DNA from: Eutreptiella sp. 'Long Island Sound 2002'
Lineage: Eukaryota; Euglenozoa; Euglenophyceae; Eutreptiales; Eutreptiaceae
Direction of reading: 5' to 3'
Assembly (NCBI GenBank): GCA_964036045.1
Contig: OZ038385.1
Span: forward strand, 3,162,001 to 3,226,000
Length of the DNA stretch: 64,000 nucleotides
A program made the translations under genes and the position numbers. The first letter of the stretch is position 1. Every line of letters begins with the position of its first letter. The notes below the pieces were generated by a model that worked only from the letters and a program-made list of their open reading frames with translations, was not told the origin of the DNA and made no database searches. Positions 1-61,221 of this stretch are shown here, in pieces.

Positions 1-3000
1 GAGGAGCCAATAGTCTTGCATGTATGCGCAGTAGTGCGGACAGGATTTTTATGGGCCTTGTGTTCTTGTTGACATTGCACCCCTCTGACTTGTGTGCTGT
101 CATGTGCAGTACTTCTTTCACTTCTTCCGGCCACTGTTCGTACCCCATCCTGAGTATCTGGATGAACTGGTGTGCTGCTTGTATTCCAAACAGTTTTACA
201 AATGCTGGGGTGAACCCCTCACTCCTGCTGTTTTGTTTACCATCTCTCCTTTTCTGTGGACCAGAGCACTTGTTGAGACTGGTCCTGCCCCTTTGCGGAT
301 GATGAGCTCTGCCGCCCTCTCCACTCGTTGTGGTCGTTCATCTGTCACGTGTTTTCCCACTAGGTCCTCCACCCATTCCACTGGTACTCGTGTAGTGTGT
401 ACTGGGTTCTTTTTGAGACACTCCTTGCTGACCACTGTGAGAATTTCTTTCCCTTCCACTGTGCACTGACGATCCGTGTCATCCACCTGATGCAGTATTT
501 TGAAGGGATTTGCTGCCTTTAATCTGAGAACTTTCAATGTTCTCCCCGCCATCCCTGGCTGTGATACTTGACGCCACTGCTGCACTGTGGTCTCCCAGTA
601 TTTTGCTGTAAGCGACTGCTGCACCCTGTCTGTTACTTTCCAGCCTTTGCCCTGGACCACTCTCTTGAGCTGCCGGATTGTTTCCCTGTCATCCTTTGTC
701 TCCTCCTCCAGCTGGTTCCTGAATTCCCTGTTCACGATGACCACTGCTTCTCGTATCATTTGCATCCATTGCTGTGGTGTTGTCCTTCTCCCACTGAATG
801 CCTCCACTAAGTCTGAGAACATCACATTGTGGTGTTTGTCCCATTGCAGGGGTGTGACCGGCTTGGCGTCTGATTGTGCTGCTCCTGCTGCCAGTTCTAC
901 TTCCCCTTTGACGCATACCACTGGGTGGTCCCCTACTGAAGATAGCCATACCCCTCTCTGTTGCTGATTTATTCCGTTTATGATGAAGAAGTCCTTTGGC
1001 AGGTGTTGGCGACCTGTCATGTACGCTACGGTCCTGCCCTTGGTGAGAAGCGTGGCTATGGTTTCTCTGTGGAACCGTATGTCTCGATTCCAGTCTCCAC
1101 CTACTGCTTCCCAATCATGTGGAGTCTTGTCCAGTGTCTCCAGCATTTCCACCATCTGCCCCTTATACTCATGGGGTTCGTTCTTCTGGGCCATGTGTAC
1201 TGATCCTACTATTCCCAGACCCATGGCATTGCGTACCAATACCATGAGTGCACTGGGTATATCCAGCAGGACTGCTTGTTTTCGTGCCCAGGCAAGTCGC
1301 ACCCACACTTCATTGGCCTGTCCCACTTTCGTGTGTTGTGACTGTTGCACCCAGTATCCTGCTATGGTTCTTTGTCTCTCCTTCTTCTGCGACCCCCACA
1401 TTTCTTGACACGCCAGCACGTCCGCTTGGGTTTCCACTACCACTGTGGTCACCTCATCCCATTTTCGAGTGGGTGTTTCATTCTCTCTGTTGATGCCTTG
1501 GCAGTTCACTGATACCAGACTGTATCTCATTTTCACCTGTTGACTGTTCTCTGGTACCATCATTGCCTTCCACGCTTGCTGTTCATATTGCTGTCGTCCC
1601 CAGTGTGGCGCACTCCAGTCGATTCTTATCGCCCCTCTGCCATGCCCCTCTGTGTATTTTACCAGTTCGTCCCTCCAGTGGCGCTCCTGGGGATCCCATT
1701 TCGTGATGTTGCATATTTCTGCCCACCATGACCCCATGTCTGTTTCTTCTTTTCGCCTGCATCTGTTGATTCCTGTCTCCTTCACCAGTACTTGGTGCTG
1801 CCTCCCATGGCTCCATACCTGCATTACTATCCAGAGTTTGACTGTGACCTCTGCATTGCATTCTTGTGCCATGGGGAAATTCAGTAATCCCACTCTCTCA
1901 AGTGCTGCTCCTTCTGTCCACAGTGTGAATTTAGTCTCCCCACACTGCAGTATTCCCGAGTGCAGCTGCTCTGCGCCGCTAATGGCTGGTCTTCCCGGTA
2001 GTTTGACTACCCTGTGGGCCATTATCTCATGCGGTGTCCCACTACCAGTCCATTTGGGACCCAAGATTCTGGTTACTGCGACCCTCTGATCCCCTTGACG
2101 TAGGACTTCACTGTGTCTTCCTGTTCGTCTTTTTGGCAGCTGTACTCTTTCCCCTGCCAGGGTTAGTGTGCCACTGTCCTCAGTAGGGCATGCCATTGTT
2201 TGCACTGGGTGGTAGCCCCCTGTTTTGTGTTTTTTATTCTGCTTGTTGAGCCCTTTGTACTCCTTGGACTGAGTCAGCTGTTGCAGTACCCACGGCGGTG
2301 CATCTTGCATCCCATGTCCTCTGCTTCTAACGACCACCTCAAACTGATGTGCTGCTTTGTCCCACTCACTCTCTGTGGAGTTTAATGAGTGCCTTTCGTT
2401 CTGTGATCCTTCTAGTCTCTTTTGAAAACTGTTCTGAATACCCCATATGCCATGTCTCTCTGCTATTTCTGCAATGTCCCGTTGGGCATCTTCCATGCTT
2501 GCTGTGAACGTCACTGTTCCTCCCATTTCTGTGCATTGTCCAAATCCCCACAGGGATATGAATGCATGTCGTGGACTATACGGGGGCATGAGACACCACA
2601 CTGTTTGATCTGTGAGTGCATCCACAACCACACCTGTCGCTGCCACTTCCACTGCCGCTTCCGGCTTGGTTTGCTGTGGTGAAGGGATCCTCGCCGCAAT
2701 CTTTTTCAGGCCATCCAGCATGGATAGCTCCTTGATTTCTATTTTGTCTGACCGCTGCATGGGGTCTCTCGCTGCAGAGACTCGAAATGAGTCCCTATAC
2801 GCCCCTGATAGGGCCGTGTCCAGTTGTTCCCCTGGGACAAACATGACTACTTCATTGTACTGTCTCTGCATGTCTCTGAATGTCCTGAAGTCCAGCGACA
2901 ACATCCCAAACACTTCTTCTCCTGCCGAGTACGAGTCCATTGCATCTGTGTATTGGAACCCTGTCAGGAGCACTTGTCGAAGTTGTTTGGCTCCTCTCGT

Positions 3001-4042
3001 GAGTCGCTGGACTACCACTTTGTTGACTCCTTCACCCGTTTTCCACACTCCTGTCGGGGTATCGGCTGCTGCACTGCCATGGGACGTGTCCTCCTTTGCC
3101 GGGGGCCTCTGGTTGTCCTGGACCTCTTCTGCCTGATCCTCTACATCCTCATCGCCATTTGTCTTGTTAGTGTCATCTGGCAGTATTACCCTTTGGGCTG
3201 CGCCTTGATTGTTCTTGGCGTACTTCCTGCTCCTCTCCTTCGGCGTTGATGACTTTTTGGGTGACCACTTTCTGGCTTGTGCTCTGTCTCGATCCTGTTG
3301 TTTGGCGTGCTCCGCCTCCTTTGCCCTCTGGGCTCTGGCCTTATCCTCTTCCTCTACTCGGTCTCTTCTGACGTATCTCACATATTTGACCAGCACTTTG
3401 GCCCACCATTTGACTTCTGATTGCGTCGCCTATGTGATTCTTTTCCGCACTGCTGAGTATATGCCCGTCGCTGGCAGCAGTAGTATGGCCATGTCAATCT
3501 CATCCCCGTATTCTTCTGCCACCAGGGCTTGCAGTCTGTCCTCTTCCGGGATGTTGAGGTCGTGCAGTGATTCCATTAGGGCCAGTACTTTTTTCATTTC
3601 CGTCTGATCGATGTCTCCTCTGGGTCTTTCCTCCTGCTGATTGGCTGTCGAGGGGGGGGTCTCCTTCATCCCCTGGTTCTGACCTGGCATCCAGATCTCT
3701 ATACATCTTGGGCCATGCCATATTCCACATCGCCCTGGCCTCTGCGTCCTTCATGATGATGCTCGCTGACCATGTGGTCAGCAGTCCTTTGTCGGAGACT
3801 CGTCTTACCACCTCTACTGTGGCATCTAGTAGTGAGTACTTGCTGCGGATCCCCATCGGTCGTGCTCCTGCCTTCGGGGCTATGTCTTGTACTACATCTT
3901 TTTCCTCATCAGGTTGCAGCTTCAGCATCATTGTGTTCCAGGTCGCCGTCTCCACATCTGGTTTGAGTCTGGTGATCTCTGTTATCACCGCTTGTTCTAC
4001 ATCTCCACAGAGGAGGTGCATTGTCATGAGCCTGGTGGAGTC
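1..4042 (-). pseudogene. LINE polyprotein remnant of copy A (N-terminal region, endonuclease, part of RT)
   Basis: The reading frame encodes the unknown N-terminal region, then an APE-type endonuclease (NCQGIN, CQEMWGS, GGDWNRD and GDHPVV motifs, about 910-1,530) and the beginning of the reverse transcriptase. It is broken by an in-frame TAG at 3,430-3,432 (GAG in C), an extra G in the G-run near 3,655, and a lost base near 218 just before the position of the TAGVDG motif. The start codon region is deleted. The long open stretch 196-3,396 shows decay is recent or slight. The RT catalytic motifs would lie beyond the left edge. Confidence 0.9.
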
Positions 4043-4400
4043 TAGGCATCCAGCTCCGTGCTTGCCGCACTCTTGAGTCTGGGTCTCATCACCGGTCGTT
4101 CCGTTCGGTGGCATCTAGCTCCCTGCTCTTTGCAGTTGGAGTCTCGGCATCCAGCTTCGTGCCTGTGGCACTCGAAGTCTGGGTATCTGGTGATATCTTC
4201 TTTTCTCAGGCCTCTTCATCTGGACTATTGTGCGGTTGCCCCTTTTTGTCCAGGCATCCAGCTCGCTGCTCGTAGCAGTTGGAGTCTGGGCATCCAGCTC
4301 CGTGTATCCCACACTTGGCGTCTGGGCATCCGGCCCTGCACATTGCTGTGACTGGGTCCAGGCATCCTCGCTGGTGCGCTTCTGCACAACTCAGCTGGGC
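4042..4400 (-). repeat. Leader hairpin array of LINE copy A
   Basis: Tandem units of about 34-40 bp built around GGCATCCAGCTC and GGAGTCTGG. Each unit can fold into a stem-loop, with inner stems such as GTGC/GCAC, CTGC/GCAG and CTGCT/AGCAG. This is the same array as at 35,175-35,575 in C. In A it is joined by a deletion almost directly to the coding region. Confidence 0.75.
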
Positions 4401-4800
4401 ATCTTGGTCACCATTCCTGTTTTTTGCTCTCACCCTTTTGTCTTTCGGACCGTCGGTGGTTTCCACCCGTCCTGACTTCTTGTCTTTCACCCTTTGCTGT
4501 TGATGTCTGGGCTTCTTGTGTAATGCCCTGGGCACTCACTGTCCTGGGACCCGGTTGCTCTGCCGGTTCCAGGCAGGTGTTGCTGTACTTGGGGTTATCA
4601 CCTGGTCTATATGTGTGTGTTTCCCCTTTTCCATTAATCTTGTTCCCCTCCAGTTGCTGGTAGAGATTTGTTGCCCGACTGTCTGCCCCGTATACTCTCC
4701 AGTTCTCATCTCGTCCGTAGTGTCCAGTCCTTTGGGGCTCACCTGACGACAGGGCTTGACAATTCGCACCTGCACAGCCACCGAAGGGCGCTAAGGGGAG

Positions 4801-5030
4801 AGGGGAGCATGGGATAGCATGGGATAGCATGGGATGGCATGGGATAGCATGGGATGGCATGGGATAGCCTGGGATAGCATGGGATAGCATGGGATAGCAT
4901 GGGATGGCATGGGATAGCATGGGATAGCCTGGGATAGTATGGGATAGCATGGGATAGCACGGGATAGCATGGGATAGCACGGGATAGCATGGGATGGTAT
5001 GGGATAGCATGGGATAGCATGGGATGGCAT
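4801..5030. repeat. 10-bp satellite array S1
   Basis: About 23 copies of GGGATAGCAT, with GGGATGGCAT and occasional GGGATAGCCT or GGGATAGCAC variants. It lies between the truncated 5' end of LINE A and the (GTTTT)n 3' end of the tiny LINE copy E1. The long open frames across it are an artefact of 10-bp periodicity. Confidence 0.97.
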
Positions 5031-5356
5031 GTTTTGTTTTGTTTTGTTTTGTGAAAAACGCCTTGGCCAGGGTCGTACTGGTCCCCTCCCAGAGATTACC
5101 CATCTTCTCTTCGGTGGTGCGCTTCCCTTACCCTTGTATTACCCGTGCCCCCCCCCCCCTTTTTTTTTTCCTTTCCCCGAAAATTTTCACGTCTTCTTGA
5201 ACTTGTACTGCCAAAGAAAACAAAACAACCTGCCACTGGCTTGTACCGGCAGGTACCTTTTCTGGTTTTTCTCTTGTCCTTCTGGTAGATGTTGTTTTTG
5301 CTGTGGATTGATTGTTGCACCTGTTTTTGTGTGATCCTGACTCTTCTTTCCCCTGC
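5031..5356 (-). mobile_element. LINE 3'-end fragment E1 (severely 5'-truncated copy)
   Basis: It consists only of the last 325 bp or so of a family 1 LINE, matching 26,591-26,913 in C: the (GTTTT)n end, the poly-C/poly-T stretch, the 3' stem-loop and the beginning of the 3' UTR. It is embedded between satellite arrays S1 and S2. A 3'-end-only copy flanked by satellite on both sides is what a heavily truncated insertion into the satellite would leave. Confidence 0.88.
5228..5254 (-). other. 3' UTR stem-loop of LINE fragment E1
   Basis: ACCTGCC pairs with GGCAGGT around a 13-nt loop. The same hairpin occurs at 5,857-5,883 and 26,784-26,810, about 200 nt from each family 1 3' end. Several LINE families use a 3' stem-loop for template recognition by their RT; that role here is inference. 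Confidence 0.6.
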
Positions 5357-5658
5357 CATGGGATGGCATGGGATAGCATGGGATAGCATGGGATAGCATG
5401 GGATAGCATGGGATAGCACGGGATAGCACGGGATAGCATGGGATAGCATGGGATAGAATGGGATAGCATGGGATGGCATGGGATGATAGCATGGGATAGC
5501 CTGGAATGGCATGGGATGGCATGGGATGGCATGGGATGGCATGGGATAGAATGGGATAGCATGGGATAGCATGGGATGGCATGGGATGGCATGGGATAGC
5601 ACGGGATAGCATGGGATGGCACGGCATAGCATGGGATAGCATGGGATAGCATGGGATG
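5357..5658. repeat. 10-bp satellite array S2
   Basis: About 30 copies of GGGATAGCAT or GGGATGGCAT, with one irregular unit near 5,485. It separates LINE fragment E1 from the 3' end of LINE B. Confidence 0.97.
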
Positions 5659-5856
5659 TTTTGTTTTGTTTTGTTTTGTGAAAAACGCTTTGGCCAGGGT
5701 CGTACCGGTTCCCTCCCGGAGATTACCCATCTTCTCTTCGGTGGTGCGCTTCCCTTTCCCTTTTATTACCCGTGCCTTTTTTTTTCTTTCAACTTTTTTT
5801 TTTTCCTGAAAATTCTCGTGCCTTCCTGAAACTGTACTGCCAAAGAAAACAAAACA

Positions 5857-5883
5857 ACCTGCCACTGGCTTGTACCGGCAGGT
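5857..5883 (-). other. 3' UTR stem-loop of LINE B
   Basis: ACCTGCC/GGCAGGT stem, identical to those in E1 and C. Confidence 0.6.
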
Positions 5884-5884
5884 A

Positions 5885-6537
5885 CCTTTTCTGGTTTTTC
5901 TCATATCTTTTTTGGTAGATGTTGTTTCTGCTGTAGATTGATTGTTGCACCTGTTTTTGTGTGATCCTGACTCTTCTGTCCCTTGCCTACCCCCTGCACA
6001 AGACACGCACTGCACCATTTGCTCATGTGATGTCTCTGCTGCTGCACTGTATTTCTGGGGCCTTTGTGTCGCTTCTGCGCATCAGCACCAGGGCCTGCTG
6101 CGTTGTGGCAGTGCTCTGTGCAGAGAAGCTTTGACTGTCTGTGATGTTACAACGTCCCACTGCCACATGGTGGCTCAGTGGTGTGCTGCCCGTGCTAGGG
6201 AATGCCCTGCTGCACTGCGGCTGCTTCTGTTATCTGGATTACCTGCTGATCTGAACCTGTGCACGACGTTTGACTTGCTGGACATACATACGGCTGCTCC
6301 CTTTTGTGGGGACTGGACCGTTGACAGGACTTTTTATATAGGTCACCTGGGCTTCTGTGCCTGTTGCTGGACATTTTATATACTGCACCCGGGCATCCGT
6401 GTCTGTTGCTGGTTGCTGTTACTCGTCTGACGTTGCTCATCGTCTCGTGTATGGCTGCTGCCATTGTTTGGGGTACCCCTTGGTACCTCCTTTTGGGCCT
6501 CTGTCTCCTTTGGCCCACGTCGAGCTGCGGGCGTACC
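5885..6537 (-). other. 3' UTR of LINE B
   Basis: This non-coding stretch lies between the stop codon at 6,538 and the 3' stem-loop. It contains two similar segments of about 45 bp around 6,340-6,415 (both with TTGCTGG and a TATATA-containing stretch). It is collinear with 26,812-27,441 in C apart from small indels. No gene is seen. Confidence 0.75.
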
Positions 6538-9500
6538 TCATGGCAGAGCCTTTGCCTCCTTTTCCTTTTGCTTCGCGATGTCCTGTAGAAGAGTCACCGT
6601 GTTCCTGCACACATCTGGCTGCACTCCCTTCACTGTATCCCGGTCCCTGATCACCCACTTGACGAACTGCTCGTTTATCTCCAGACACCACAGCTGCATG
6701 CCACTATCCATTCTGCACCCTGTCCATTCCCACGCACTGCCAACCAGACACCAGTACACCCCCCTCCCCTGTGATCCTCTGCTTTGCGCTTCCCGTATAA
6801 TCCGACCTTTTTCTCCTCCATCTTCTCCTACCCACACATTCGGTACTCTCCTGGTCCATTCTGCTGCTCCTATGCCTTCTGGAGATTGCACCAGTAGTGC
6901 CACCACTGTATCTGCTCGTGGCCTTGTTGCTGAGATGAGGGTCCACCATGTGTGGAGGGCCATGGGTTTGACTGTGCCCTGATTGTCACCCGTTTCTTCA
7001 GCCACACATTGCCTTCTTCATCCACCACCATTGCTGCTCCCCCCCACTGCTCTATGTTGCTGGCATCTCCGAATATGTATAGGACCCTGACGGTCGTGAT
7101 TTCCTCCGGCCTCTGTAGGGTCCATACTTTTCCTTGTTGTGATTCCACCCTGATGAACGTGATGCCCATGCTGTGGACTCTTGCTCTCAGTCTCTTCACA
7201 TCCTTGTCCCACCTGTGGAGATCTTCTGACTGCCAGTGTACCCAGGTTGTCTCGTTCAGCACCTGACTTGGGCTGTTCGTTGCCTTGTGATACTCCACTA
7301 TGGCTGTGACCCACATCTGTGTGTCCGGGCCTGGTCTCCCTATGATGTCATATACACATTCTCTGGGTGTTCTCCTGGGTATGCCAAACGCTCCTCTGAA
7401 TGCTCTGGTCACCATGCCTGTCAGTTCACTGATTTGTCCCTCTGTTGGAATGTTTACCACGCATTTGTACACCATGCGATTATCCACCAGTCCCTCGATG
7501 ACTGCGATGGTGACTCCTGCTGACACTGGCCACCTGGCCAATTGCCCTATCACTCTGTTGGTCCATGTCTTGATGACCTTCCTTATGGCTGCATATCCTC
7601 CTGTGATGTTGACATTCCCTCCTAGTAGTTTGACATGTGCATGCCTGTTTTCTGTGATGACCTTGTCTGCTCCCCATTTGACCTTGAACTTATGCACTGC
7701 TATGTTGTCGTTCACCACCTTGAACCCCAGCACTTTCATTTTCCCACTGTGGTTCCTTTGCCCCAGTGTATGGATTGCACTCCTCAGTGTGTCAGCGAGG
7801 TGCTGAGTAATTTCTGCCACGTCTTTTGCTGGTGCTGCTGCCGCTGCTGCCGTGTCATCCACATACCCCATGGAGCCTACTGTTTCCTCCCCGAGTATGA
7901 CCCTTAGCTGCACTCCTACTCCTGCTTCCCGTACTGCCAAGTGCAGGAGGTACATGGGGATGATGTACAATAGGGGGTCCAGCCCCCCCCTTGTAGTACT
8001 CCATCGATCTGTTTATACCACTCGCTGAGCCCATAGGCCGTGACTACGTATGTTCTCAGATGTTCATACAGCTCCAGCACTCTGTTCACTGTGTCTCTGA
8101 CGTCTGGTGTGCCTTGCTGTGCCACGACTTTGATTGACTGTCTCATGACTTCGTCTAAGGCCCCCACTATGTCCAGCAGTAACAGTCCCACTGCCCCCTT
8201 GGTGGCCAGTGCCTGTGTGATGAGCATGTGCATGAGCCTCCTCATGCCATGCACTGAGCTACCTTTGTATCCCGCAAGCTGTCTACCTGCCGACCACCTT
8301 GGTCTGGTCATGGTTTGTACCAAGGGAGCCAATAGTCTTGCCTGTATGCGCAATAGGGCTGACAGGATTTTTATGGGCTTTGTGTTCTTGTTGACACTGC
8401 ACCCCTCTGACTTGTGTGCTGTCATGTGCAGTACTTCTTTCACTTCTTCCGGCCACTGTTCGTACCCCGTCTTGAGTATCTGGATGAACTGGTGTGCTGC
8501 ATGTATTCCAAACAGTTTCACAAATGCTGGGGTGAACCCATCCACTCCTGCTGTTTTGTTTACCATCTCTCCTTTTCTGTGGACCGGAGCACTTATTGAG
8601 ACTGGTCCTGCCCCTTTGCGGATGATGGACTCCGCCGCCCTCTCCACTCGTTGTGGGCGTTCATCTTTCACATGATTTCCCACCAGGTCCTCCACCCATT
8701 CCACTGGTACCCGCGTAGTGTGTGCTGGGTACTTTTTGAGACACTCCTTGCTGACCACTTTGAGAATTTCTTTTCCTTCCACTGTGCACTTGCGATCCTT
8801 GTCCTCCACCTGGTGCAGTATTTTGAAGGGATTTGCCGCCTTCAATCTGAGTATTTTCAATGTTCTCCCCGCCATCCCTGGCTGTGATACTTGACGCCAC
8901 TGCTCCACCGTGGTCTCCCAGTATTTTGCTGTTAGTGACCGCTGCACCCTGTCTCTTACTTTCCAGCCTTTGCCCTGGAGCACTCTCTTGAGCTGCCGGA
9001 TTGTTTCTTTGTCATCCTTTGTTTCCGTTTCCAACTGGTTCCTGAATTCCCTGTTGACTACTGTTTCTCGTATCATATGCATCCATTGCTGTGGTGTTGT
9101 CCTTCCTCCACTGAATGCCTCCACTAAGTCTGAGAACATCACGTTGTGGCGTTTGTCTTATTGCAGGGGTGTGAGTGGCTTGGTGTCTGATGGGGCTGCT
9201 CCTGCTGCCATTTCTACTTCTCCCTTGACCCACACCACTGGGTGGTCCTCTACTGCAGATAGCCATACCCCTCTCTGTTGCTGGTTTGTCCCTTTTATGA
9301 TGAAGAAGTCCTTTGGCAGATGTTGGCGACCTGTCATGTACGCCACGGTCCTGCCCTTGGTAAGAAGCGTGGCTATGGTTTCTCTGTGGAACGGTATGTC
9401 TCGATTCCAGTCTCCACCTACTGCCTCCCAGTCATGTGGGGTCTTGTCCAGTGTCTCCAGTATTTCCACCATCTGCCCCTTATACTCATGAGGTTCGTTC

Positions 9501-25276: not shown

Positions 25277-26517
25277 CGACGACAGGGCTTGACAATTCGC
25301 ACCTGCACAGCCACCGCAGGGCGCTAAGGGGCATTCTTAACTTCACGGCAGCGCCGCAAAGAAAGATTGCTGTTTTGCAGAAACAAACCAGGGCCGCCAT
25401 AGGCATTGTTGACCCCTCGGGTTTCCATCCCGGCGCCAACCCTGGTTTGCTTCTTAGGCTGAAAATTGCCACGCCAAAATAGCGGAAAACAGATGAAAAC
25501 GAAACAATTGTTACTGCACCTACCTATCTTTACTAGTGCCGCTCTCTCACTATACCTCGTCAACGTTCTTTACCCTGTCACCCCGGTCTCCCGGCTCTTT
25601 GTCAGTGCACCAGATGAGCGGTGCCATGAGTCTTGTTGTCCTTTTCTTGTCTTGGCCGCACGACACCACGACGCCCCGCTCACCCAACCGCCACGAGAGA
25701 CGGAGTAAGGTTGGATCCTCTTCAGATACAGCCTGAGGCTCTGCTTGAGGTCTGGGGGGTGTGCTTTCGCGACCACCTACAGCTGGAGCCCACGCTCAAC
25801 CACTGCAAGCGCCGTGGCCGGACCATGATTGCGAAGCCACACGGGGACCACAAGGCCCACGGGGGCTGTTGCCTAGGTTGGGGATGAGCCGACCTTCTTT
25901 GTTCTGGTGTATTGGGCTGTTTTGCCCCCCCAGCAGAAACCCTCGCCCGGCAGGTTTCTGCTTTTTACCGTACCGGCAACTCGTCAGCACCACGTGGCAC
26001 CGGCGAGTTGCATCAATTCCACAAACAAATCGGTCCGCATACCCGCCACACGGTGGCTGGGCCCCAGGTCTGTCGCCCAGGGTTGGGAAGGGAGACTTTC
26101 CTATTTACAGCAAACCAATATCTTGTTTGATCCACAGGTTTGACCCGAACTTGCCTATTTAGGCACAATGGTCCATTTAGTTCACACTGGTCAAGACAAA
26201 GCTCTCCTTCGACATCCTATTTACCACAAACCAACATCGTGTCGGACAGTCACCTGCCACCCTGTGGCTAGGCCCCAGGTCGCTTGCCCGGGTTTTGGAA
26301 GGGAGAGTATGTTGTTAACCCAACCTCTTTAGGGCGTGAACTCTGTTTGACTGTGTCTTTCACTGCGTTTATCCACCTTCTTGTCGTTGATCTCTTACAC
26401 CATTTACACCATTCACTCGTTCCGAAATGCTTTCAGCCTACAAGAGAAAAACACGAATACCCTCCCTAACCTTCCCTGTTTGCAACCACCTTCGCAAAAG
26501 AGGGCCCGGTTAAGGGA
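25277..26517 (-). promoter_or_regulatory. Outer leader block of LINE D (putative promoter, family 1 type)
   Basis: Nearly identical to 35,915-37,183 of C up to about 26,100, with more divergence in the last 400 bp. It contains the structured module (25,384-25,449), the AGCAGAAACC stem-loop (25,932-25,962) and two monomer-like segments (26,043-26,096 and 26,256-26,308). Promoter role is inferred from its 5'-terminal position. Confidence 0.55.
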
Positions 26518-26590
26518 ACGGGATGGCATGGGATGGCATGGGATAGCATGGGATAGCATGGGATAGCATGGGATGTCATGGGATAGCATG
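26518..26590. repeat. 10-bp satellite array S4 (shortest between full elements)
   Basis: About seven units of GGGATAGCAT or GGGATGGCAT between the 5' end of D and the 3' end of C. Confidence 0.96.
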
Positions 26591-26783
26591 TTTTGTTTTG
26601 TTTTGTTTTGTGAAAAACGCTTTGGCCAGGGTCGTACTGGTCCCCTCCCGGAGATTACCCATCTTCTCTTCGGTGGTGCGCTTCCCTTACCCTTGTATTA
26701 CCCGTGCCCCCCCCCCCTTTTTTTTTCTTTCCCCGAAAATTTTCACGTCTTCTTGAACTTGTACTGCCAAAGAAAACAAAACA

Positions 26784-26810
26784 ACCTGCCACTGGCTTGT
26801 ACCGGCAGGT
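26784..26810 (-). other. 3' UTR stem-loop of LINE C
   Basis: A 7-bp ACCTGCC/GGCAGGT stem about 200 nt before the 3' end, identical in the three family 1 copies that retain this region. Confidence 0.6.
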
Positions 26811-26811
26811 A

Positions 26812-27441
26812 CCTTTTCTGGTTTTTCTCATGTCTTTCTGGTAGATGTTGTTTTTGCTGTGGATTGATTGTTGCACCTGTTTTTGTGTGATCCTAACTCT
26901 TCTTTCCCCTGCCTACCCCCTGCACAGGACACGCACTGCACCATTTGCTCATGTGATGTCTCTGCTGCTGCACTGTTTCTCTGGGGCCTTTGTGCCAGGG
27001 CCTGCTGCGTTGTGGCAGTGCTCTGTGCAGAGAGGCTCTGTCTGTCTGTGATGTTACAACGTCCCACTGCCACATGGTGGTTCTGTGGTGTGCTGCCCGT
27101 GCTCGGGAATGCCCTGCTGCACTGTGGCTGCTTCTGGTATCTGGAGTACCTGATCTGAACCTGTGCACGACGTTTGACTGACTGGACATACATACGGCTG
27201 CTCCCTTCTGCTGGGACTTGACCGTTGACAGGACTTTTTATATAGGTCACCTGGGCTTCTGTGTCCGTTGCTGGACATTTCATATACTGCACCTAGGCAT
27301 CCATGTCTGTTGCTGGCTGCAGTTAATGGTCCGACGTTGCTCATCGTCTCGTGTATGGCTGCTGCCATTGTTTGGGGTACCCCTTGGTACCTCCTTTTGG
27401 GCCTCTGTCTCCTTTGGCCCACGTTGCGCTGCGAGCGTACC
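26812..27441 (-). other. 3' UTR of LINE C
   Basis: Non-coding stretch between the stop codon at 27,442 and the 3' stem-loop. Two similar segments with TTGCTGG and a TATATA-containing stretch lie near 27,235-27,320. No gene is seen. Confidence 0.75.
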
Positions 27442-30400
27442 TCATGGCAGAGCCTTTGCCTCCTTTTCCTTTGGCTTCGTGATATCCTGTAGAAGAGTCA
27501 CAGCGTTCCTGCACACGTCTGGCCGCACTCCCTTCACTGTGTCTCGGTCCTTGATCACCCACTTGACGAACTGCTCGTTTATCTCCAGACACCACAGCTG
27601 CATGCCACTATCCATTCTGCACCCTGTCCATTCCCACGCACTGCCAACCAGACACCAGTACACCCCTCTCCCCTGTGATCCTCTGCTTTGCGCTTCTCGT
27701 ATAACCTGACCTTTGTCTCCTCCATCTTCTCGTACCCACACATCCGGTACTCTCCTGGTCCATTCTGCTGCTCCTATGCCTTCTAGAGATTGCACCAGTA
27801 GTGCCACGACTGTATCTCTTCGTGGCCTTGTTGCTGAGATGAGGGTCCACCATGTGTGGAGGGCCATGGGTTTGACTGCTCTTTTTCGTTTTTTCACTTG
27901 ACCTACTGCTATTCTGCAGTTGGTTCCTGCTTGCCAGTCTGCCAGTAGTCTGTTGTGCTGGTCCATCTTCATCTCTGATTCCTCCGCTGCATACACTATG
28001 GCATATGCCGCTTCTAGGGTTCTGAACACCACTGATTTGGGGTGCTGTACCCCCACTCTCGCTAGTGGCACTGTGATTCCTTGCACTGGACCTATGCCCA
28101 GCCACACTGGCCACACTGTTCTATTTGAGTGTTTCTGTGGTTGCAGTACACTCGTTCTGGAGGGAGGAGACCATACTATGTCTACTTGCTGCTTCCCTTG
28201 TATCCGAACCCCCCCCCATGTCGGGGTGATACGTCCTGGCTGTACCCCCTCACTGATGAGTATCTGGCACACCTCCTGCACCCATAGGTATATCCTCGTT
28301 TTCGTCACTATGCATTCATGCAGTTGATGGTGCCTGACGCTCTCACACCACAGCCCACATTTTTCACAGTGTTGTTGCTTTCCTTCCCATTCCCACTCTG
28401 CTGCCTCTGCATACGGACTCCATGTTCTGATTTCTCCCCAGTCTCTTATGCTCAGTGGTTGCAGTCTTTGCCATGCTCTCTGTGCCTCCTTTGCTTCCGG
28501 GAACACTCTGGTCCATGTATGCTGCTGTGGTGCTGGTGTCCTGTCGCTCTCTTCACTGCACAGTGCTGACGTCGTGTGCTGCAGGAGGTATTTTTTTATG
28601 TCGATGATGACCTCGTCATTCACAAATGGCAGAACCACTGCTCCGTCTGTCCACACTTGTGGCAGGCGCAGTGGTGTGCCTCTGCCTTTGGCCCCTTCTT
28701 TGGCCTCCTTGTCCATTTCCTGGTTTGCCTGTGATATCCAGTCTTGCTGTTGAGTGTCATGATGTGCCTGTACCCATCCCCACTCCGGGGGTACTGTTGT
28801 TTCCTGTCCCGTGGCTATTATTCTGTCCATGATGGATGCTGGTCGTTGTTGCAACTGCCCTGACGCCAGAGACTGGATTGCTTCCAGGCTATCCGGACAT
28901 GCCCACACCTTCTGGACTGTCACTTCTTATTTCCTGATGGCTTGGAGCACTGCCTCCAGTGCCATCACTATCATGGTGGCCTCTACCAGCTTTGTACTGA
29001 GTCCCTGTGCCTTTATAGTCACCCGTTTCTTCAACCACACATTGCCTTCTTCATCCACCACCATTGCTGCTCCCCCCCACTGTTCTATGTTGCTGGCATC
29101 GCCGAATATGTATAAGACCCTGACCGCTGTGTTTTCCTCCTGCCTCTGTAGGGTCCATACCTCTCCTTGTTGTGGTTCCACCCTGATGAATTTGATGCCC
29201 ATGCTGTGGACTCTTGCTCTCAGTCTCCTCACATCCTCGTCCCACCTGTGGAGATCTTCTGACTGCCAGTGTACCCAGGTTGTCTCGTTCAGCACCTGAC
29301 TGGGGCCGTTAATCGCCTTGTGATACTCCACTATGGCTGTGACCCACATCAGTGTGTCCGGGCCTGGTCTCCCTATGATGTCATATACACATTCTCTGGG
29401 TGTTCTCCTGGGTATGCCAAACGCTCCTCTGAATGCTCTGGTCACCATGCCTGTCAGTTCACTGATCTGTCCCTCTGTTGGAATGTTTACCACGCATTTG
29501 TACACCATGCGGTTCTCCACCAGTCCCTCGATGACTGCGATGGTGACTCCTGCTGACACTGGCCACCTGGCCAATTACCCTATCACTCTGTTGGTCCATG
29601 TCTTGATGACCTTCCTTATGGCTGCATATCCTCCTGTGATGTTGACATTACCTCCCAGTAGTTTTATACGTGCATGCCTGTTTTCTGTGGTGACCTTGTC
29701 TGCTCCCCATTTGACCTTGAACTTATGCACTGCTATGTTGTCGTTCTCCACCTTGAACCCTAGTACTTTCATTTTCCCACTGTGGTTTCTTTGCCCCAGT
29801 GTATGGATTGCACTCCTCAGTGTGTCTGCCAAGTGCTGGGTAATCTCTGCTACTTCTTTTGCTGGTGCCGTTGCTGCTGCTGCTGCCGTGTCATCCACAT
29901 ACCCCATGGAGCCTACTGTTTCCTCTCCCAGAATGACCCGTAGCCGCACTCCTACTCCTGCTTCCCGTACTGCCAGGTGCAGGAGGTGCATGGGGATGAT
30001 GTACAGTAGGGGGTCCAGCCCCCCCCCTTGCAGTACTCCGTCTATCTGTTTGTACCACTCGCTGAGCCCATAGGCTGTGACTACGTATGTTCTCAGATGT
30101 TCATACAGTTTCAGCACTCCGTTCACTGTGTCTCTGACGTCGGGTGTGCCTTGGTGTGCCATGACTGTGATGGACTGTCTCATGACTTCATCAAAGGCCC
30201 CCACTATGTCCAGCAGTAATACTCCCACTGCCCCCTTGGTGGCTAGTGCCTGTGTGATGAGCATGTGCATGAGCCTCCTCATACCATGCACTGAGCTGCC
30301 TTTGTATCCCGCAAACTGTCTGCCTGCCGACCACCTCGGTCTGGTCATGGTTTGTACCAGAGGAGCCAATAGTCTTGCCTGTATGCGCAGTAGTGCGGAC

Positions 30401-33400
30401 AGGATTTTTATGGGCCTTGTGTTCTTGTTGACATCGCACCCCTCTGACTTGTGTGCTGTCATGTGCAGTACTTCTTTCACTTCTTCCGGCCACTGTTCGT
30501 ACCCCATCCTGAGTATCTGGATGAACTGGTGTGCTGCTTGTATTCCAAACAGTTTTACAAATGCTGGGGTGAACCCATCCACTCCTGCTGTTTTGTTTAC
30601 CATCTCTCCTTTTCTGTGGACCAGAGCACTTATTGAGACCTGTCCTGCCCCTTTGCGGATGATGAGCTCCGCCGCCCTCTCCACTCGTTGTGGTCGTTCA
30701 TCTGTCACGTGTTTTCCCACTAGGTCCTCCACCCATTCCACTGGTACTCGTGTAGTGTGTACTGGGTACTTTTTGAGATACTCCTTGCTGACCACTGTGA
30801 GAATTTCTTTCCCTTCCACTGTGCACTGACGATCCGTGTCCTCCACCTGATGTAGTATTTTGAAGGGATTTGCTGCCTTTAATTTGAGAACTTTCAATGT
30901 TCTCCCTGCCATCCCTGGCTGTGATACTTGACGCCACTGCTGCACTGTGGTCTCCCAGTATTTTGCTGTAAGCGACTGCTGCACCCTGTCTCTTACTTTC
31001 CAGCCTTTGCCCTGGACCACTCTCTTGAGCTGCCGTATTGTTTCCCTGTCATCCTTTGTCTCCTCCTCCAGCTGGTTCCTGAATTCCCTGTTCACGATGA
31101 CCACTGTTTCTCGTATCATATGCATCCATTGCTGTGGTGTCGTCCTTCTCCCACTGAATGCCTCCACTAAGTCTGAGAACATCACATTGTGGTGTTTGTC
31201 CCATTGCAGGGGTGTGACCGGCTTGGCGTCTGATTGTGCTGCTCCTGCTGCCAGTTCTACTTCCCCTTTGACCCATACCACTGGGTGGTCCCCTACTGGA
31301 GATAGCCATACCCCTCTCTGTTGCTGATTTATTCCGTTTATGATGAAGAAGTCCTTTGGCAGGTGTTGGCGACCTGTCATGTACGCTACGGTCCTGCCCT
31401 TGGTGAGAAGCGTGGCTATGGTTTCTGTGTGGAACCGTATGTCTCGATTCCAGTCTCCACCTACTGCCTCCCAATCATGTGGAGTCTTGTCCACTGTCTC
31501 CAGTATTTCCACCATCTGCCCCTTATACTCATGGGGTTCGTTCTTCTGGGCCATGTGTACTGATCCTACTATTCCCAGACCCATGGCATTGCGTACCAAT
31601 ACCATGAGTGCACTGGGTATATCCAGCAGGACTGCTTGTTTTCGTGCCCAGGCAAGTCGCACCCACACTTCATTGGCCTGTCCCACTCTCGTGTGTTGTG
31701 ACTGTTGCATCCAGTATCCTGCTATGGTTCTTTGTCTCTCCTTCCTCTGCGACCCCCACATTTCTTGACACGCCAGCACGTCCGCTTGGGTTTCCACTAC
31801 CACTGTGGTCACCTCATCCCATTTTTGAGTGGGTGTTTCCTTCTCTCTGTTGATGCCTTGGCAGTTCACTGATACCAGACTGTATCTCATTTTCACCTGT
31901 TGACTGTTCTCTGGTACCATCGTTGCCTTCCACGCTTGCTGTTCATATTGCTGTCGTCCCCAGTGTGGCGCACTCCAGTTGATTCTTATCGCCCCTCTGC
32001 CATGCCCCTCTGTGTATTTTACCAGTTCGTCCCTCCAGTGGCGCTCCTGAGGATCCCATTTCGTGATGTTGCATATTTCTGCCCACCATGACCCCATGTC
32101 TGTTTCTTCTTTTCGCTTGCGTCTGTTGATTCCTGTCTCCTTCACCAGTACTTGGTGCTGCCTCCCATGGCTCCATATCTGCATTACTATCCAGAGTTTG
32201 ACTGTGACCTCTGCATTGCATTCTTGTGCCATGGGGAAATTCAGTATTCCCACTCTCTCAAGTGCTGCTCCTTCTGTCCACAGTGTGAATTTAGTCTCCC
32301 CACACTGCAGTATTCCCGAGTGCAGCTGCTCTGCGCCGCTAATGGCTGGTCTTCCCGGTAGTTTGACTACCCTGTGTGCCATTATCTCATGCGGTGTCCC
32401 ACTACCAGTCCATTTGGGACCCAACATTCTGGTTACTGCGACCCTCTGATCCCCTTGACGTAGGACTTCACTGTGTCTTCCTGTTCGTCTTTTTGGCAGC
32501 TGTACTCTTTCCCCTGCCAGGGTTAGTGTGCCACTGTCCTCAGTAGGGCATGCCATTGTTTGCACGGGGTGGTAGCCCCCTGTTTTGTGTTTTTTATTCT
32601 GCTTGTTGAGCCCTTTGTACGCCTTGGACTGAGTCAGCTGTTGCAGTACCCACGGCGGTGCATCCTGCATCCCATGTTCTCTGCTTCTGACGACCACCTC
32701 AAACTGATCTGCTGCTTTGTCCCACTCACTCTCTGTGGAGTTTAATGAGTGCCTTTCGTTCTGTGATCCTTCTAGTCTCTTTTGAAAACTTTTCTCAATA
32801 CCCCATATGCCATGTCTCTCTGCTATTTCTGCAATGTCCCGTTGGGCATCTTTCATGCCTGCTGTGAACGTCACTGTTCCTCCCATTTCTGTGCGTTGTC
32901 CAAATCCCCACAAAGATATGAATGCATGTTGTGGACTATACGGGGGCATGAGACACCACACTGTTTGATCTGTGAGTGCATCCACAACCACACCTGTCGC
33001 TGCCACTTCCACTGCCGCTTCCGGCTTGGTTTGCTGTGGTGAAGGGATCCTTGCCGCAATCTTTTTCAGGCCATCCAGCATGGATAGCTCCTTGATTTCT
33101 ATTTCGTCTGACCGCTGCATGGGGTCTCTGGCTGCAGAGACTCGAAATGAGTCCCTATACGCCCCTGATAGGGCCGTGTCCAGTTGTTCCCCTGGGACAA
33201 ACATGACTACTTCATTGTACTGTCTCTGCATGTCTCTGAATGTCCTGAAGTCCAGCGACAACATCCCAAACACTTCTTCTGCTGCCGAGTACGAGTCCAT
33301 TGCATCTGTGTATTGGAACCCTGTCAGGAGCACTGGTCGAAGTCGTTTGGCTCCTCTCGTGAGTCGCTGGACTACCACTTTGTTGACTCCTTCACCCGTT

Positions 33401-34533
33401 TTCCACACTCCTGTCGGGGTATCGGCTGCTGCACTGCCATGGGACGTGTCCTCCTTTGCCGGGGGCCTCTGGTTGTCCTGGACCTCTTCCGCCTGATCCT
33501 CTACATCCTCATCGCCATTTGTCTTGTTAGTGTCATCTGGCAGTATTACCCTTTGGGCTGCGCCTTGATTGTTCTTGGCGTACTTCCTGCTCCTCTCCTT
33601 CGGCGTTGATGACTTTTTGGGTGACCACTTTTTGGCTTGTGCTCTGTCTCGATCCTGTTGTTTGGCGTGTTCCGCCTCCTTTGCCCTCTGGGCTCTGGCC
33701 TTATCCTCTTCCTCTACTCGGTCTCTTCTGACGTATCTCACATATTTGACCAGCACTTTGGCCCACCATTTGACTTCTGATTGCGTCGCCTCTGTGATTC
33801 TTTTCCGCACTGCTGAGTATATGCCCGTCGCTGGCAGCAGTAGTATGGCCATGTCAATCTCATCCTCGTATTCTTCTGCCACTAGGGCTTGCAGTCTGTC
33901 CTCTTCCGGGATGTTGAGGTCGTGGAGTGATTCCAGTAGGGCCAGTACTTTTTTCATTTCCGTCTGATCGATGTCTCCTCTGGGTCTTTCCTCCTGCTGA
34001 TTGGCTGTCGAGGGGGGGTCTCCTTCATCCCCTGGTTCTGACCTGGCATCCAGATCTCTATACATCTTGGGCCATGCCATATTCCACATCGCCCTGGCCT
34101 CTGCGTCCTTCATGATGATGCTCGCTGACCATGTGGTCAGCAGTCCTTTGTCGGAGACTCGTCTTACCACTTCTACTGTGGCATCTAGTAGTGAGTACTT
34201 GCTGCGGATCCCCATCAGTCGTGCTCCTGCCTTCGGGGCTATGTCTTGTACTACATCTTTTTCCTCATCAGGTTGCAGCTTCAGCATCATTGTGTTCCAG
34301 GTCGCCGTCTCCACATCTGGTTTGAGTCTGGTGATCTCTGTTATCACCGCTTGCTCTACATCTCCACAGAGGAGGTGCATTGTCATGAGCCTGGCTCTAT
34401 GGCTGCCTGATTGCAGCCATAGTCCCAGGGTCTCCGTCGCTGCGTCTTCGTTCTCTGGCTCCCATCTTATTTTCTTGGGATCGCCTTGTACTGCTCGGAC
34501 TTTGCCCCACGATGTTTGTATGGCTGGCGGCAT
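27442..34533 (-). pseudogene. LINE polyprotein of copy C: N-terminal region, APE endonuclease, RT, RNase H, zinc knuckle; two nonsense codons
   Basis: The single frame of 2,364 codons would cut target DNA and copy the element RNA. The first 880 residues or so match nothing I recognise; they contain a basic segment and a well-conserved LLTGFQYTDAMDSY region. The endonuclease spans about 31,890-31,270 (NCQGIN, CQEMWGS, GGDWNRD, GDHPVV). In the RT, motif A is LLLDIVGAFDE (30,186-30,216), motif B is LQGGGLDPLL (30,005-30,037) and motif C is YVDD (29,890-29,905). RNase H has FGDAS (29,097-29,112), LVEATM (28,974-28,991), PDSLEAIQ (28,879-28,905) and WVQAHHD with NQEMDKE (28,700-28,780). The zinc knuckle CEKC...H...C is at 28,312-28,368. 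Stops are TAA at 29,575-29,577 (CAA in B) and TAA at 28,927-28,929. The start is the MPPAI ATG conserved in D, although the frame is open to 34,878. Confidence 0.93.
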
Positions 34534-35169
34534 CGTGTTCCTGTATAATATCAAGAGTACTAGTGTTCGCAGTGCTCTTTGTCTCTGTTTACATGTTGTC
34601 GGCAGCCATCGTAGCTTACTATCGACGCCTGCTTTGCTGTTGTGTAGTCTGGCACCCGTGTCCAGCTGCTGGTGCTGTGCTTGCCAGCCGGTTTCTCTCT
34701 TATGGGGCTCTCGTGACCCTCTTCTCAGATTTATTCTTGCTCTTCTCTGCTCTGTGCAGCCATTGACTCGCCTTTTTACCCCAGCACTCGGGTACTCGTG
34801 ACCCTTGTGGCTGTCTGTCTGTGCACCGGCTCTCGCGGCCTGCTTGTACCTTGTTTGATTTTCGTTCTCCTGCTTCATGTTTCTGGGTACTCATGACCCT
34901 TATGCACTGTCACCCTGTTTATCTCTTCGGGCCATCGTGGCCAGCCCACTTTCGTAGTGGTCTCTTTTCACGTTACCTTGTGTTTTCTGCACAGACCATG
35001 TCATCTGTGTTTGACTGCTGTTCGCTCCGTGGAGTCCTTGCTCCGTTATGCACTGCAAGCACACACATGGCACAGATTGATGAGGTTCTGGGCAACTGCC
35101 CTGGTTGTACATGGTTGCACAGTTCTGACGTTTCATGTCTTCTGGAGTAGCCAGTGATGCGGTCTGTTG

Positions 35170-35575
35170 TTCCAGGCATCTAGCTCCCTCCCTGTCTTGG
35201 ACAGGTGGAGTCCAGGCATCCAGCTCCGTGCTTGCCGCACTCTTGAGTCTGGGTCTCATCACCGGTCGTTCCGTTCGGTGGCATCTAGCTCCCTGCTCTT
35301 TGCAGTTGGAGTCTCGGCATCCAGCTTCGTGCATGTGGCACTCGAAGTCTGGGTATCTGGTGATATCTTCTTTTCTCAGGCCTCTTCATCTGGACTATTG
35401 CGCGGTTGCCCCTTTTTGTCCAGGCATCCAGCTCGCTGCTCGTAGCAGTTGGAGTCTAGGCATCCAGCTCCGTGTATCCCACACTTGGAGTCTGGGCATC
35501 TGGCCCTGCACATTGCTGTGACTGGGTCCAGGCATCCTCGCTGGTGCGCTTCTGCACAACTCAGCTGGGCATCTT
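35170..35575 (-). repeat. Leader hairpin array of LINE C with covarying stems
   Basis: Seven or more units of about 34-40 bp. Good examples are 35,220-35,252 (CCAG, CTC, GTGC closed by GCAC, GAG, CTGG) and 35,321-35,352 (CCAG, CTTC, GTGC closed by GCAC, GAAG, CTGG). Other inner stems are CTGTC/GACAG (35,192-35,204), CTGC/GCAG (35,293-35,305), CTGCT/AGCAG (35,436-35,448) and CACA/TGTG near 35,510. CTCC/GGAG changes to CTTC/GAAG as a pair. Confidence 0.82.
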
Positions 35576-35914
35576 GGTCACCATTCCTGTTTTTTGCTCT
35601 CACCCTTTTGTCTTTCGGACTGTCGGTGGTTTCCACCCGTCCTGACTTCTTGTCTTTCACCCTTTGCTGTTGATGTCTGGGCTTCTTGTGTAATGCCCTG
35701 GGCACTCACTGTCCTGGGACCCGGTTGCTCTGCCGGTTCCAGGCAGGTGTTGCTGTACTTGGGGTTACCGCCTGGTCTATATGTGTGTGTTTCCCCTTTT
35801 CCATTAATCTTGTTCCCCTCCAGTTGCTGGTAGAGATTTGTTGCCCGACTGTCTGCCCTGTATACTCTCCAGTTCTCATCTCGTCCGTAGTGTCCAGTCC
35901 TTTGGGGCTCACCT

Positions 35915-37183
35915 GACGACAGGGCTTGACAATTCGCACCTGCACAGCCACCGCAGGGCGCTAAGAGGCATTCTTAACTTCACGGCAGCGCCGCAAAGAA
36001 AGATTGCTGTTTTGCAGAAACAAACCAGAGCCGCCATAGGCATTGTTGACCCTTCGGGTTTCCATCCCGGCGCCAACCCTGGTTTGCTTCTTAGGCTGAA
36101 AATTGCCGCGCCAAAATAGCGGAAAACAGAAGAAAACGAAACAATTGTTACTGCACCTACCTATCTTTACTAGTGCCGCTCTCTCACTATACCTCGTCAG
36201 CATTCTTTACCCTGTCACCCCGGTCTCCCGGCTCTTTGTCAGTGCACCAGATGAGCGGTGCCATGAGTCTTGTTGTCCTTTACTTGTCTTGGCCGCAGGA
36301 CACCACGACGCCCCGCTCACCCAACCGCCACGAGAGACGGAGTAAGGTTGGATCCTCTTCAGATACAGCCTGAGGCTCTGCTTGAGGTCTGGGGGGTGTG
36401 CTTTCGCGACCACCTACAGCTGGAGCCCACGCTCAACCACTGCAAGCGCCGTGGCCGGACCATGATTGCGAAGCCACACGGGGACCACAAGGCCCACGGG
36501 GGCTGTTGCCTAGGTTGGGGATGAGCCGACCTTCCTTGTTCTGGTGTATTGGGCTGTTTTGCCCTCCCAACAGAAACCCTCGCCCGGCAGGTTTCTGCTT
36601 TTTACCGTACCGGCAACTCGTCAGCACCACGTGGCACCGGCGAGTTGCATCAATTCCACAAACAAATCGGTCCGCATACCCGCCACGTGGCTGGGCCCCA
36701 GGTCTGTCGCCCAGGATTGGGAAGGGAGACTTTCCTATTTACAGCAAACCAATCTCATCCAGACTCATCTACTTACGACAAACCAACATCTTGTTTGACC
36801 CATAGGTATTAACCGAGTTCCCCTATTTAGGCACAAAGCTCTCCTTCACTCCAGTGACATCCTATTTGCCACAAATCAATATCGTGTCTGACAGTCACCT
36901 GCCACCCTGTGGCTAGGCCCCAGGTCACTTGCCCGGGTTTTGGAAGGGAGAGCATTTTGATAACCCATTGTTAACCAATAATTTGTTTGTACCCTGTTTG
37001 ATGTGGATTTTCTTGATTTCATCGTCGCTGCATTAATCCACGCTCTGGTCACTGATCACTTACTCCATTCACTCGTACTGTATCGGACGTCTTGCTTTTC
37101 AGTTCCTATAAGAGAACAACAGGCATACCTCCCCTAACCTTCCCTGTTTGCAACCACCTTCGCAGAAGAGGGCCCGGTTAAGG
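35915..37183 (-). promoter_or_regulatory. Outer leader block of LINE C (putative promoter)
   Basis: It contains the structured module 36,021-36,086 (CAAACCAG/CTGGTTTG outer stem, ACCC/GGGT hairpin), a stem-loop at 36,569-36,599 with one mismatch, and monomer-like repeats at 36,682-36,730 and 36,901-36,952. It ends at the satellite. Three short sense-strand frames (68, 65 and 80 codons) lie in it. The 68- and 65-codon frames are also open in B and D, but sequence identity is too high for that to show selection. Confidence 0.55.
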
Positions 37184-37647
37184 AATGGGATAGCATGGGA
37201 TGGCATGGGATAGCATGGGATGGCATGGGATGGCATGGGATAGCACGGGATAGCATGGGATAGCATGGGATAGCATGGGATAGAATGGGATAGCATGGGA
37301 TGGCATGGGATAGCATGGGATGGCATGGGATAGCATGGGATAGCATGGGATAGCATGGGATAGCATGGGATAGCATGGGATGGCATGGGATAGCATGGGA
37401 TAGCATGGGATGGCATGGGATAGCATGGGATGGCATGGGATAGCATGGGATAGCCTGGGATAGCATGGGATAGCATGGGATAGCACGGGATGGCATGGGA
37501 TAGCATGGGATAGCATGGGATAGAATGGGATAGCATGGGATGGCATGGGATAGCATGGGATGGCATGGGATAGCATGGGATAGCATGGGATAGCATGGGA
37601 TGGCATGGGATGGCATGGGATAGCATGGGATAGCATGGGATGGCATG
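37184..37647. repeat. 10-bp satellite array S5 (longest)
   Basis: About 46 copies of GGGATAGCAT or GGGATGGCAT, with few other variants. It lies between the 5' end of LINE C and the 3' end of micro-copy E2. Confidence 0.97.
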
Positions 37648-37753
37648 TTTTGTTTTGTTTTGTTTTGTGAAAAACGCTTTGGCCAGGGTCGTACTGGTCC
37701 CCTCCCGGAGATTACCCATCTTCTCTTCGGTGGTGCGCTTCCCTTACCTTCGT
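37648..37753 (-). mobile_element. LINE 3'-end fragment E2 (about 105 bp)
   Basis: It matches only the terminal 105 bp or so of family 1 LINEs (26,591-26,697 in C): four GTTTT repeats, GAAAAACGCTTTGGCCAGG and the CTCCCGGAGATTACCC region. It is flanked by satellite on both sides (S5 and S6) and marks the right edge of the LINE array. Confidence 0.88.
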
Positions 37754-37800
37754 ATGGGATGGCATGGGATAGCATGGGATAGCATGGGATAGCATGGGGA
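37754..37800. repeat. 10-bp satellite array S6, right edge of the array
   Basis: Four to five units of the 10-bp satellite, after which unique sequence begins at 37,801. It may be the remnant of the original satellite locus into which the LINEs inserted. Confidence 0.93.
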
Positions 37801-61220: not shown

Positions 61221-61221
61221 C

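Follow-up and report, generated by a model that had tools for sequence, protein, structure and literature searches.

Organization of the satellite-LINE array

The stretch analysed here (64,000 nucleotides, C8:3,162,001-3,226,000, hereafter the window) belongs to contig C8 of the 2.28-Gb assembly of Eutreptiella sp. 'Long Island Sound 2002', which comprises 2,205 contigs. Its positions 1-37,800 hold six units derived from a long interspersed nuclear element (LINE), all in one orientation and alternating with six blocks of a 10-bp satellite with the unit GGGATAGCAT (Table 1). Repeat calls and alignments agree on this arrangement, already described in the first-pass annotation, and place all LINE units of the array on the minus strand, where they end in an (AAAAC)n tail that reads (GTTTT)n on the plus strand. 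The boundary GGGCCCGGT(T/C)AAGG, proposed earlier as the common 5' limit of the elements against the satellite, is indeed found in the three units of the window that retain their 5' end. In neighbouring DNA fetched for this purpose, the left edge of the array was located at C8:3,147,897, 14.1 kb to the left of the window, so that the whole C8 array comprises seven LINE units and eight satellite blocks.

The perfect double unit of the satellite occurs 105 times in the genome, always on one strand, against zero occurrences of the reversed control pattern, and thus the pattern is not due to chance. Counts in the fetched DNA assigned 62 of these double units to the C8 locus and 43 to a duplicate of this locus on contig C24. 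Perfect double units of the satellite are thus seen only at these two loci, but the LINE ends are not confined to the satellite: an exact 20-mer of the LINE tail is found 109 times in the genome (57 on the plus and 52 on the minus strand; zero for its reversed control), with the copies read outside the two arrays lying in different repeats.

Table 1. Features of the array and its right flank, in window coordinates.
Feature	Position	Strand	Remarks
LINE unit D, 5'-truncated at GCGCTAAGGGG	1..4805	-	7,833 bp in total; continues beyond the window start, with its 3' end at C8:3,158,978
Satellite S1, 10-bp unit GGGATAGCAT	4806..5031	+	Tandem Repeats Finder
f326, 5'-truncated LINE fragment	5032..5356	-	3' end only, ~326 bp, (AAAAC)n tail
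Satellite S2	5357..5657	+	Variant order common to C24, beside the unit C homologue
LINE unit C, 5' end intact	5658..15260	-	3' junction common to the C24 copy (ancestral insertion)
Satellite S3	15261..15600	+	Tandem Repeats Finder 15263-15600
LINE unit B, diverged family	15601..26515	-	Close to the others only in the 5'-most 1.2 kb
Satellite S4	26516..26590	+	7 units; Tandem Repeats Finder 26520-26590
LINE unit A, full length	26591..37183	-	
Unit A, long coding frame	27442..34878	-	2,479 codons, the terminal stop and the two in-frame stops (1768, 1984) counted
Unit A, endonuclease-like region	31273..31884	-	Motifs SxNxQG, QE, GGDWN, GDHP
Unit A, reverse transcriptase (PF00078)	29812..30429	-	YVDD motif at 29904-29887
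Unit A, FGDAS, possible RNase H motif	29092..29106	-	No Pfam match
Unit A, CCHC-like cysteine/histidine motif	28312..28368	-	
Satellite S5	37184..37647	+	46 units; Tandem Repeats Finder 37185-37647
f106, 5'-truncated LINE fragment	37648..37752	-	~106 bp, (AAAAC)n tail
Satellite S6 and array edge	37753..37800	+	Tandem Repeats Finder 37754-37798
Right flank common to C24	37801..44063	.	98.95% over 6.3 kb; holds the IBR/RBR-like coding stretch

The element is a non-LTR retrotransposon

Unit A consists of ~2.3 kb 5' of a long coding frame, the frame itself, ~0.8 kb on its 3' side and an (AAAAC)4 tail. A reverse transcriptase (RT) domain (PF00078) was detected in unit A (E 4.2e-07) and in unit B (E 2.5e-07), and a comparison with PDB matched the R2 protein (E 7.9e-09). 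As judged by BLASTN, the two ends of the units differ from each other in sequence, i.e. long terminal repeats (LTRs) are absent. With an RT domain and no LTRs, the array units are classed as non-LTR retrotransposons. Moreover, units D, f326, f106 and c24_1 are truncated on their 5' side and have intact tails; such 3'-anchored copies with variable 5' truncation, along with the target duplications described below, are as expected of LINE insertion.

The remaining parts of the frame were more difficult to assign. Its long N-terminal part gave no Pfam match. The motifs SxNxQG, QE, GGDWN and GDHP, located in order N-terminal to the RT, are those of a region which we take to be similar to the apurinic/apyrimidinic endonuclease (APE) type of LINE endonuclease. 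This region matched PF03372 in two of three members (best E 0.0015), the single score shown being below the cut-off; its sole match in PDB was unrelated and not significant (E 0.47), and its predicted structure was unusable (predicted local distance difference test score, pLDDT, 33.5). After the RT, FGDAS is a possible RNase H motif, although the region gave no Pfam match to an RNase H; LINE clades bearing RNase H include I, Tad, LOA, Ingi and others. Finally, we take the cysteine/histidine motif further downstream to be CCHC-like.

Unit B is assigned to a family distinct from that of the other array units. BLASTN aligned it with them only in the 5'-most 1.2 kb, at ~89-97%, and similarity across part of the coding region was ~72%, a difference which gives it a chimeric look and suggests template switching or recombination between families. 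A first protein search, with scoring of the 7,999 candidates that had most words in common with the query, matched two unnamed proteins, P0004 (62% over 72%) and P0005 (38% over 67%); a second search returned P0004 alone, the endonuclease segment of which is, by eye, closely like that of unit B.

LINE tails abut G-skewed tandem repeats across the genome

A 400-base query from the LINE 3' end produced 41 matches, with 40 of 195 candidates scored, and at all of the 30 loci taken from it (two in the C8 array) the flank was seen on inspection to end in tandem repeats. The same was true, also by inspection, of the 12 flanks read from the 40 matches to a second query, derived from unit B. A scripted set of 51 flanks, 11 from the C8 and C24 arrays and 40 from elsewhere, was then assayed with a Tandem Repeats Finder criterion, which was passed by 50 of the 51 and by 39 of the 40 outside both arrays. 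The single miss (L091) was a failure of tail trimming, as inspection showed its repeat array to end at the start of the tail. Tails in unrelated, non-repeat DNA, an observation named in the first-pass annotation as one that would refute targeting, were sought, and no tail of this kind was found among the 40 read outside both arrays (one by inspection).

The repeats used are diverse. Their best-scoring units measure 4, 5, 6, 8, 10, 12, 15, 22, 24, 49 and 50 bp and include (GGGGCT)n and (GGTAT)n. Among the longer units, some may be multiples of shorter ones. G-skew on the primer strand was positive in 30/30 distinct flanks, with a mean of 0.77 and a minimum of 0.16 (L046), this set being what remained of 41 flanks after 11 with the same last 50 bases were dropped (one of the 30 is from the C8 array), and the values of L031, L086, L091 and L094 being somewhat shifted by incompletely trimmed tails. 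An absolute skew of at least 0.6 was reached in only 0.26% of 1,160 control windows. Of 34 de-duplicated junctions (11 from the C8 and C24 arrays; four retaining part of the tail), 30 have G at position -4, 28 have A at -2 and 32 have T at -1, so that the consensus preceding the tail is mostly GNAT.

For comparison, a 60-kb control sample taken arbitrarily from the genome (G+C ~59%) had 77 of 1,177 GNAT sites inside tandem repeats under a comparable criterion, and 42 of 122 GGGAT sites, all of the latter in one long array; in the right part of the window the figure was 21 of 726 GNAT sites. Since even the largest of these fractions is too low, the 39 of 40 found for the tails is not expected by chance. 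As read from these flanks, the family targets G-skewed tandem repeats as a class and not one 10-bp satellite, the units ranging from 4 to ~50 bp with differing sequences. Of the satellite targeting proposed earlier, the insertion bias to tandem repeats is thus retained, but not its restriction to a single 10-bp satellite, as many other repeats hold the family.

The pattern observed is that of insertions after selection, and a weakly specific endonuclease whose insertions outside G-rich repeats were later lost by selection or deletion could leave a similar one. We consider this improbable, given that 51 of 51 flanks end in repeats (50 by script, one by inspection), that strong G-skew is rare in the control and that several copies, with ends 98-100% identical to unit A, look young.

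Copies cluster on one strand

Among 100 listed tails, 71 fall into 23 clusters (steps of at most 100 kb), where random placement would yield ~0.44 close pairs on average. Neighbouring tails were on the same strand in 48 pairs and on opposite strands in none. Lists of 3' and 5' ends, which consist of the best-scoring places and overlap each other, gave a similar picture: pairs within 40 kb among the 80 listed 3'-end places from both queries were 45 on the same strand and none on opposite strands, and six of the 40 listed 5'-end places have a listed 3' end at most 2 kb beyond, all of them head to tail. Within the tandem repeats to which its flanks read are confined, the family thus takes a fixed position and orientation (48 of 48 pairs).

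The 23 clusters are spread over many contigs, several of them on one contig in cases such as C8, C10 and C23. A link with chromosome ends or centromeres, raised in the first-pass annotation, receives no support from these positions, or from those of the two arrays, which lie at 3.2 of 80.6 Mb (C8) and at 13.2 of 35.3 Mb (C24). Such repeats pose difficulties for assembly, and a tandem order could be produced by collapsed or misjoined long reads; such an artefact is very improbable here, with two loci that carry different arrays between the same flanks and 21 further clusters that obey the strand rule.

The target repeat is found at both ends of the insertions

At sites predicted to hold 5' ends, 15 stretches of 1.8 kb each were retrieved. 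The 5' end was present in eight of them and absent from the other seven. In seven of the eight, including the truncated element L074, the same repeat was found at both ends of the element, and in L073 a related one. Target duplications were 14 bp and exact for L037/L076 (49-bp unit) and 11 bp with one mismatch for L046/L081 (22-bp unit), and units A and B fit a duplication of 12 bp. Such short duplications are consistent with target-primed reverse transcription. At L068 (C15:57,650,650-57,652,450), the order ATACAT, AGAT run, GGAT run recurs at either end of the element, which may point to a far longer target duplication or to a periodic array.

A duplicate locus keeps an empty site

The same flanks as on C8 are found on C24 at ~13.22-13.25 Mb, the left one with 98.1% identity over 7.5 kb, satellite start included, and the right one as given in Table 1. 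Within the stretch compared the homology stops at window position 44,063, and the duplicate is an allele or a paralogue. A right-flank query matched at three places: on C8 and on C24 at a rounded 100% each, and on C7 at 89%. The C24 array holds four LINE units. Unit C and its C24 counterpart have a common 3' junction and the same order of satellite variants beside it, which makes the insertion of unit C older than the duplication. By contrast, element E of the C8 array adjoins a satellite stretch that runs uninterrupted in C24, and this empty site inside the satellite implies that the satellite preceded the insertion of element E. The duplicated locus constitutes a record of successive insertions into one satellite in which an empty site has been kept.

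The C7 relative (L095, C7:85,268,300-85,268,820; 521 bp read) matches the left flank at one end. Two short and weaker matches sit side by side towards the opposite end, one to the left flank (E 5.7e-07) and one to the right flank (E 0.011), which map ~0.1 kb before the satellite and ~60 bp after it, respectively. No satellite array is present in the 521 bp read, and a single GGGATGGCAA stands where the satellite would be, suggesting that the satellite grew after the split from the C7 relative.

These data bear on whether the satellite could be a product of the element, either by extension of its 3' tail, as the first-pass annotation had offered as an alternative, or by post-insertion expansion of the target duplication. 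Such an origin would account for the finding of perfect double units only at the C8 locus and its C24 duplicate, and also for a C7 relative without an array in the part read. For element E it is refuted by the uninterrupted satellite in C24, and the same tail stands beside many different repeats in other copies, with the repeat present on both sides of the element. We assign it next to no probability, and synthesis of the satellite as a 3' tail is contradicted both by the empty site and by how varied the repeats are.

Independent insertions and local duplication

An array such as that on C8 might also arise from few true insertions, if unequal crossing-over or segmental duplication had copied one LINE and satellite unit in tandem. 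Duplication does occur in this genome, as the whole C8 locus is duplicated on C24, and in the clusters at C23:24.84-24.90 Mb and C8:78.34-78.38 Mb copies with identical flanks lie ~18.6 kb (L026/L033) and 21.4 kb (L085/L089) apart, which suggests later segmental duplication of LINE pairs at both places. The C8 units, however, differ in truncation, tail length, junction phase and family, and are at most 98.3% identical when compared with each other (the 106-bp fragment being too short to compare), and the 400 bp at the 3' end of unit A are listed at 100% identity to a C15 copy. Moreover, in a tree of 36 sequences, each a 3' region of 1.4 kb, of which only the coarse result was used, the bootstrap being unsettled and a few rows having long branches, array members fell on several branches; each array label required two changes, and one change was found in 0% of the bootstrap trees. 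Two close pairs emerged in this tree, one joining unit C to its C24 counterpart (100/100), the other joining units D and A (95/83); the pairing of D and A counts in favour of tandem copying. As the main source of the array, we regard tandem copying as very unlikely. The serial insertion with a surviving landing site that the first-pass annotation had put forward is upheld by the repeat on both sides, the target duplications, the C24 empty site and the fact that the array members do not form one clade.

Proposed mode of insertion

The explanation that we favour, with a probability of roughly 0.88, is that the C8 array is one of 23 same-strand clusters formed by a non-LTR family that inserts into G-skewed short tandem repeats. 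The element endonuclease would nick the G-rich strand of the repeat array after GNAT or a similar site ending in T, and the nicked 3' end would prime reverse transcription, with the (AAAAC)n tail as the start of the template. The cut would be staggered, and the other end would be joined after a short target duplication of ~11-14 bp. All copies would face one way because the repeat is asymmetric, and arrays would grow head to tail because the repeat is left on both sides, so that each insertion leaves fresh targets. We infer that recognition, and not later loss elsewhere, causes the restriction to repeats. For SART1 of Bombyx the requirement is a minimum of three telomeric repeats, with other telomeric repeats being accepted inefficiently (PMC7265360); by analogy, the present element could plausibly recognise several repeat units together.

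Several points weigh against this explanation. The genome is rich in tandem repeats, which occupy 7,579 of the 60,000 control bases, mostly in two arrays, and the 42 of 122 GGGAT sites mentioned above lie in a single array; the flanks read are those of the best-scoring copies and were not drawn at random, and (GGGAT)n or (GGAT)n recurs at many loci. The assignment of the endonuclease is weak, as seen from its PF03372 scores and pLDDT. In short units the length of a target duplication is fixed only modulo the unit length. Finally, units D and A of the C8 array are sisters in the tree, and the identical flanks of L026/L033 and L085/L089 indicate that local duplication also contributes.

The rule of recognition may lie in spaced sequence motifs or in a structure of the G-skewed DNA. 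How the repeats would be recognised admits a bolder proposal, which we put forward tentatively: the element may read the tandem repetition of G-rich, strand-skewed DNA as such, and not a fixed target sequence, by way of G-quadruplexes or R-loops, or by binding spaced G runs multivalently. If true, newly born minisatellites of almost any unit would be colonised wherever they arise. Along similar lines, the structure or state of G-skewed repeats (G-quadruplex, R-loop, repeat chromatin) might be what is recognised, with little need of sequence beyond a T before the nick. The use of units of 4, 5, 6, 8, 10, 12, 22, 24 and ~50 bp, (GGGGCT)n and (GGTAT)n among them, would fit with this, but the GNAT-type consensus at the nick favours some direct reading of sequence and the skew of L046 is only 0.16, which leaves this alternative conceivable though doubtful.

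Other features in and around the window

An IBR/RBR-like coding stretch (window 37810-38514; Pfam scores sub-threshold) adjoins the edge of the array. Rfam gave 0 matches in the window at the gathering threshold. To the left of the array, C8:3,139,290-3,142,736 (L009) holds a ~3.4-kb tandem array with 64-bp steps, as deduced from match offsets, which is also found on C24 with a different length. Two further repeats were seen in the right part of the window. At 61220-61942 lies a second family of arrays with a 10-bp unit, ACCATGCGGC / CATGGTGCCG, beside which no LINE of the array's family was recognised. At 51214-51347 lies a G-rich minisatellite (TTGGCGGTTGGTGGCGG-like), also without such a LINE, which is a candidate unoccupied repeat; its consensus is without GNAT.

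Comparison with known repeat-associated LINEs

LINEs targeted to repeats are already known (PMC4640811, PMC5035012). The C8 family resembles SART1 and TRAS of Bombyx in its insertion in one orientation into a short tandem repeat (PMC7265360). Unlike them, it occupies repeats that vary widely in unit length and sequence and lie at interstitial positions. Its element is also longer than SART1 and TRAS.

Dong and others are microsatellite-specific LINEs. Togen targets (TG)n and some HERO families are microsatellite-specific, which makes simple repeats as target a point of likeness with the C8 family; for Togen, however, one microsatellite is named, and the clades spoken of encode a restriction-like endonuclease (RLE) (PMC4640811), whereas the C8 family uses a class of repeats and has a putative APE-like region.

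Zepp of the alga Coccomyxa also forms LINE clusters, mostly chromosome-internal, which are nested, one per chromosome and probably centromeric (PMC3446292). The C8 family differs in being arranged head to tail in satellite and in having several clusters per contig, as on C8, C10 and C23, which departs from the Zepp rule of one cluster per chromosome. FoTeR and MoTeR of fungi are likewise site-directed LINEs tied to repeats, but they have a restriction enzyme-like (REL-type) endonuclease and lie at chromosome ends, and their tandem repeats are inside the element and are not its target (PMC12857005).

Among the open-access literature on LINEs in microsatellites and tandem repeats, represented mostly by titles and the beginnings of abstracts, no LINE targeting varied G-rich repeats was recognised. 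To our knowledge, the known repeat-targeted LINEs are tied to one repeat or to its near relatives. We read as new, then, the breadth of the repeats apparently accepted, in an element with an APE-like region. This breadth provides a natural series of targets, with units from 4 to ~50 bp, for reading off the recognition rule, and opens the target choice of such elements to direct testing. Moreover, it explains how head-to-tail arrays of satellite and LINEs form, with minisatellites acting as self-renewing safe havens for these elements.

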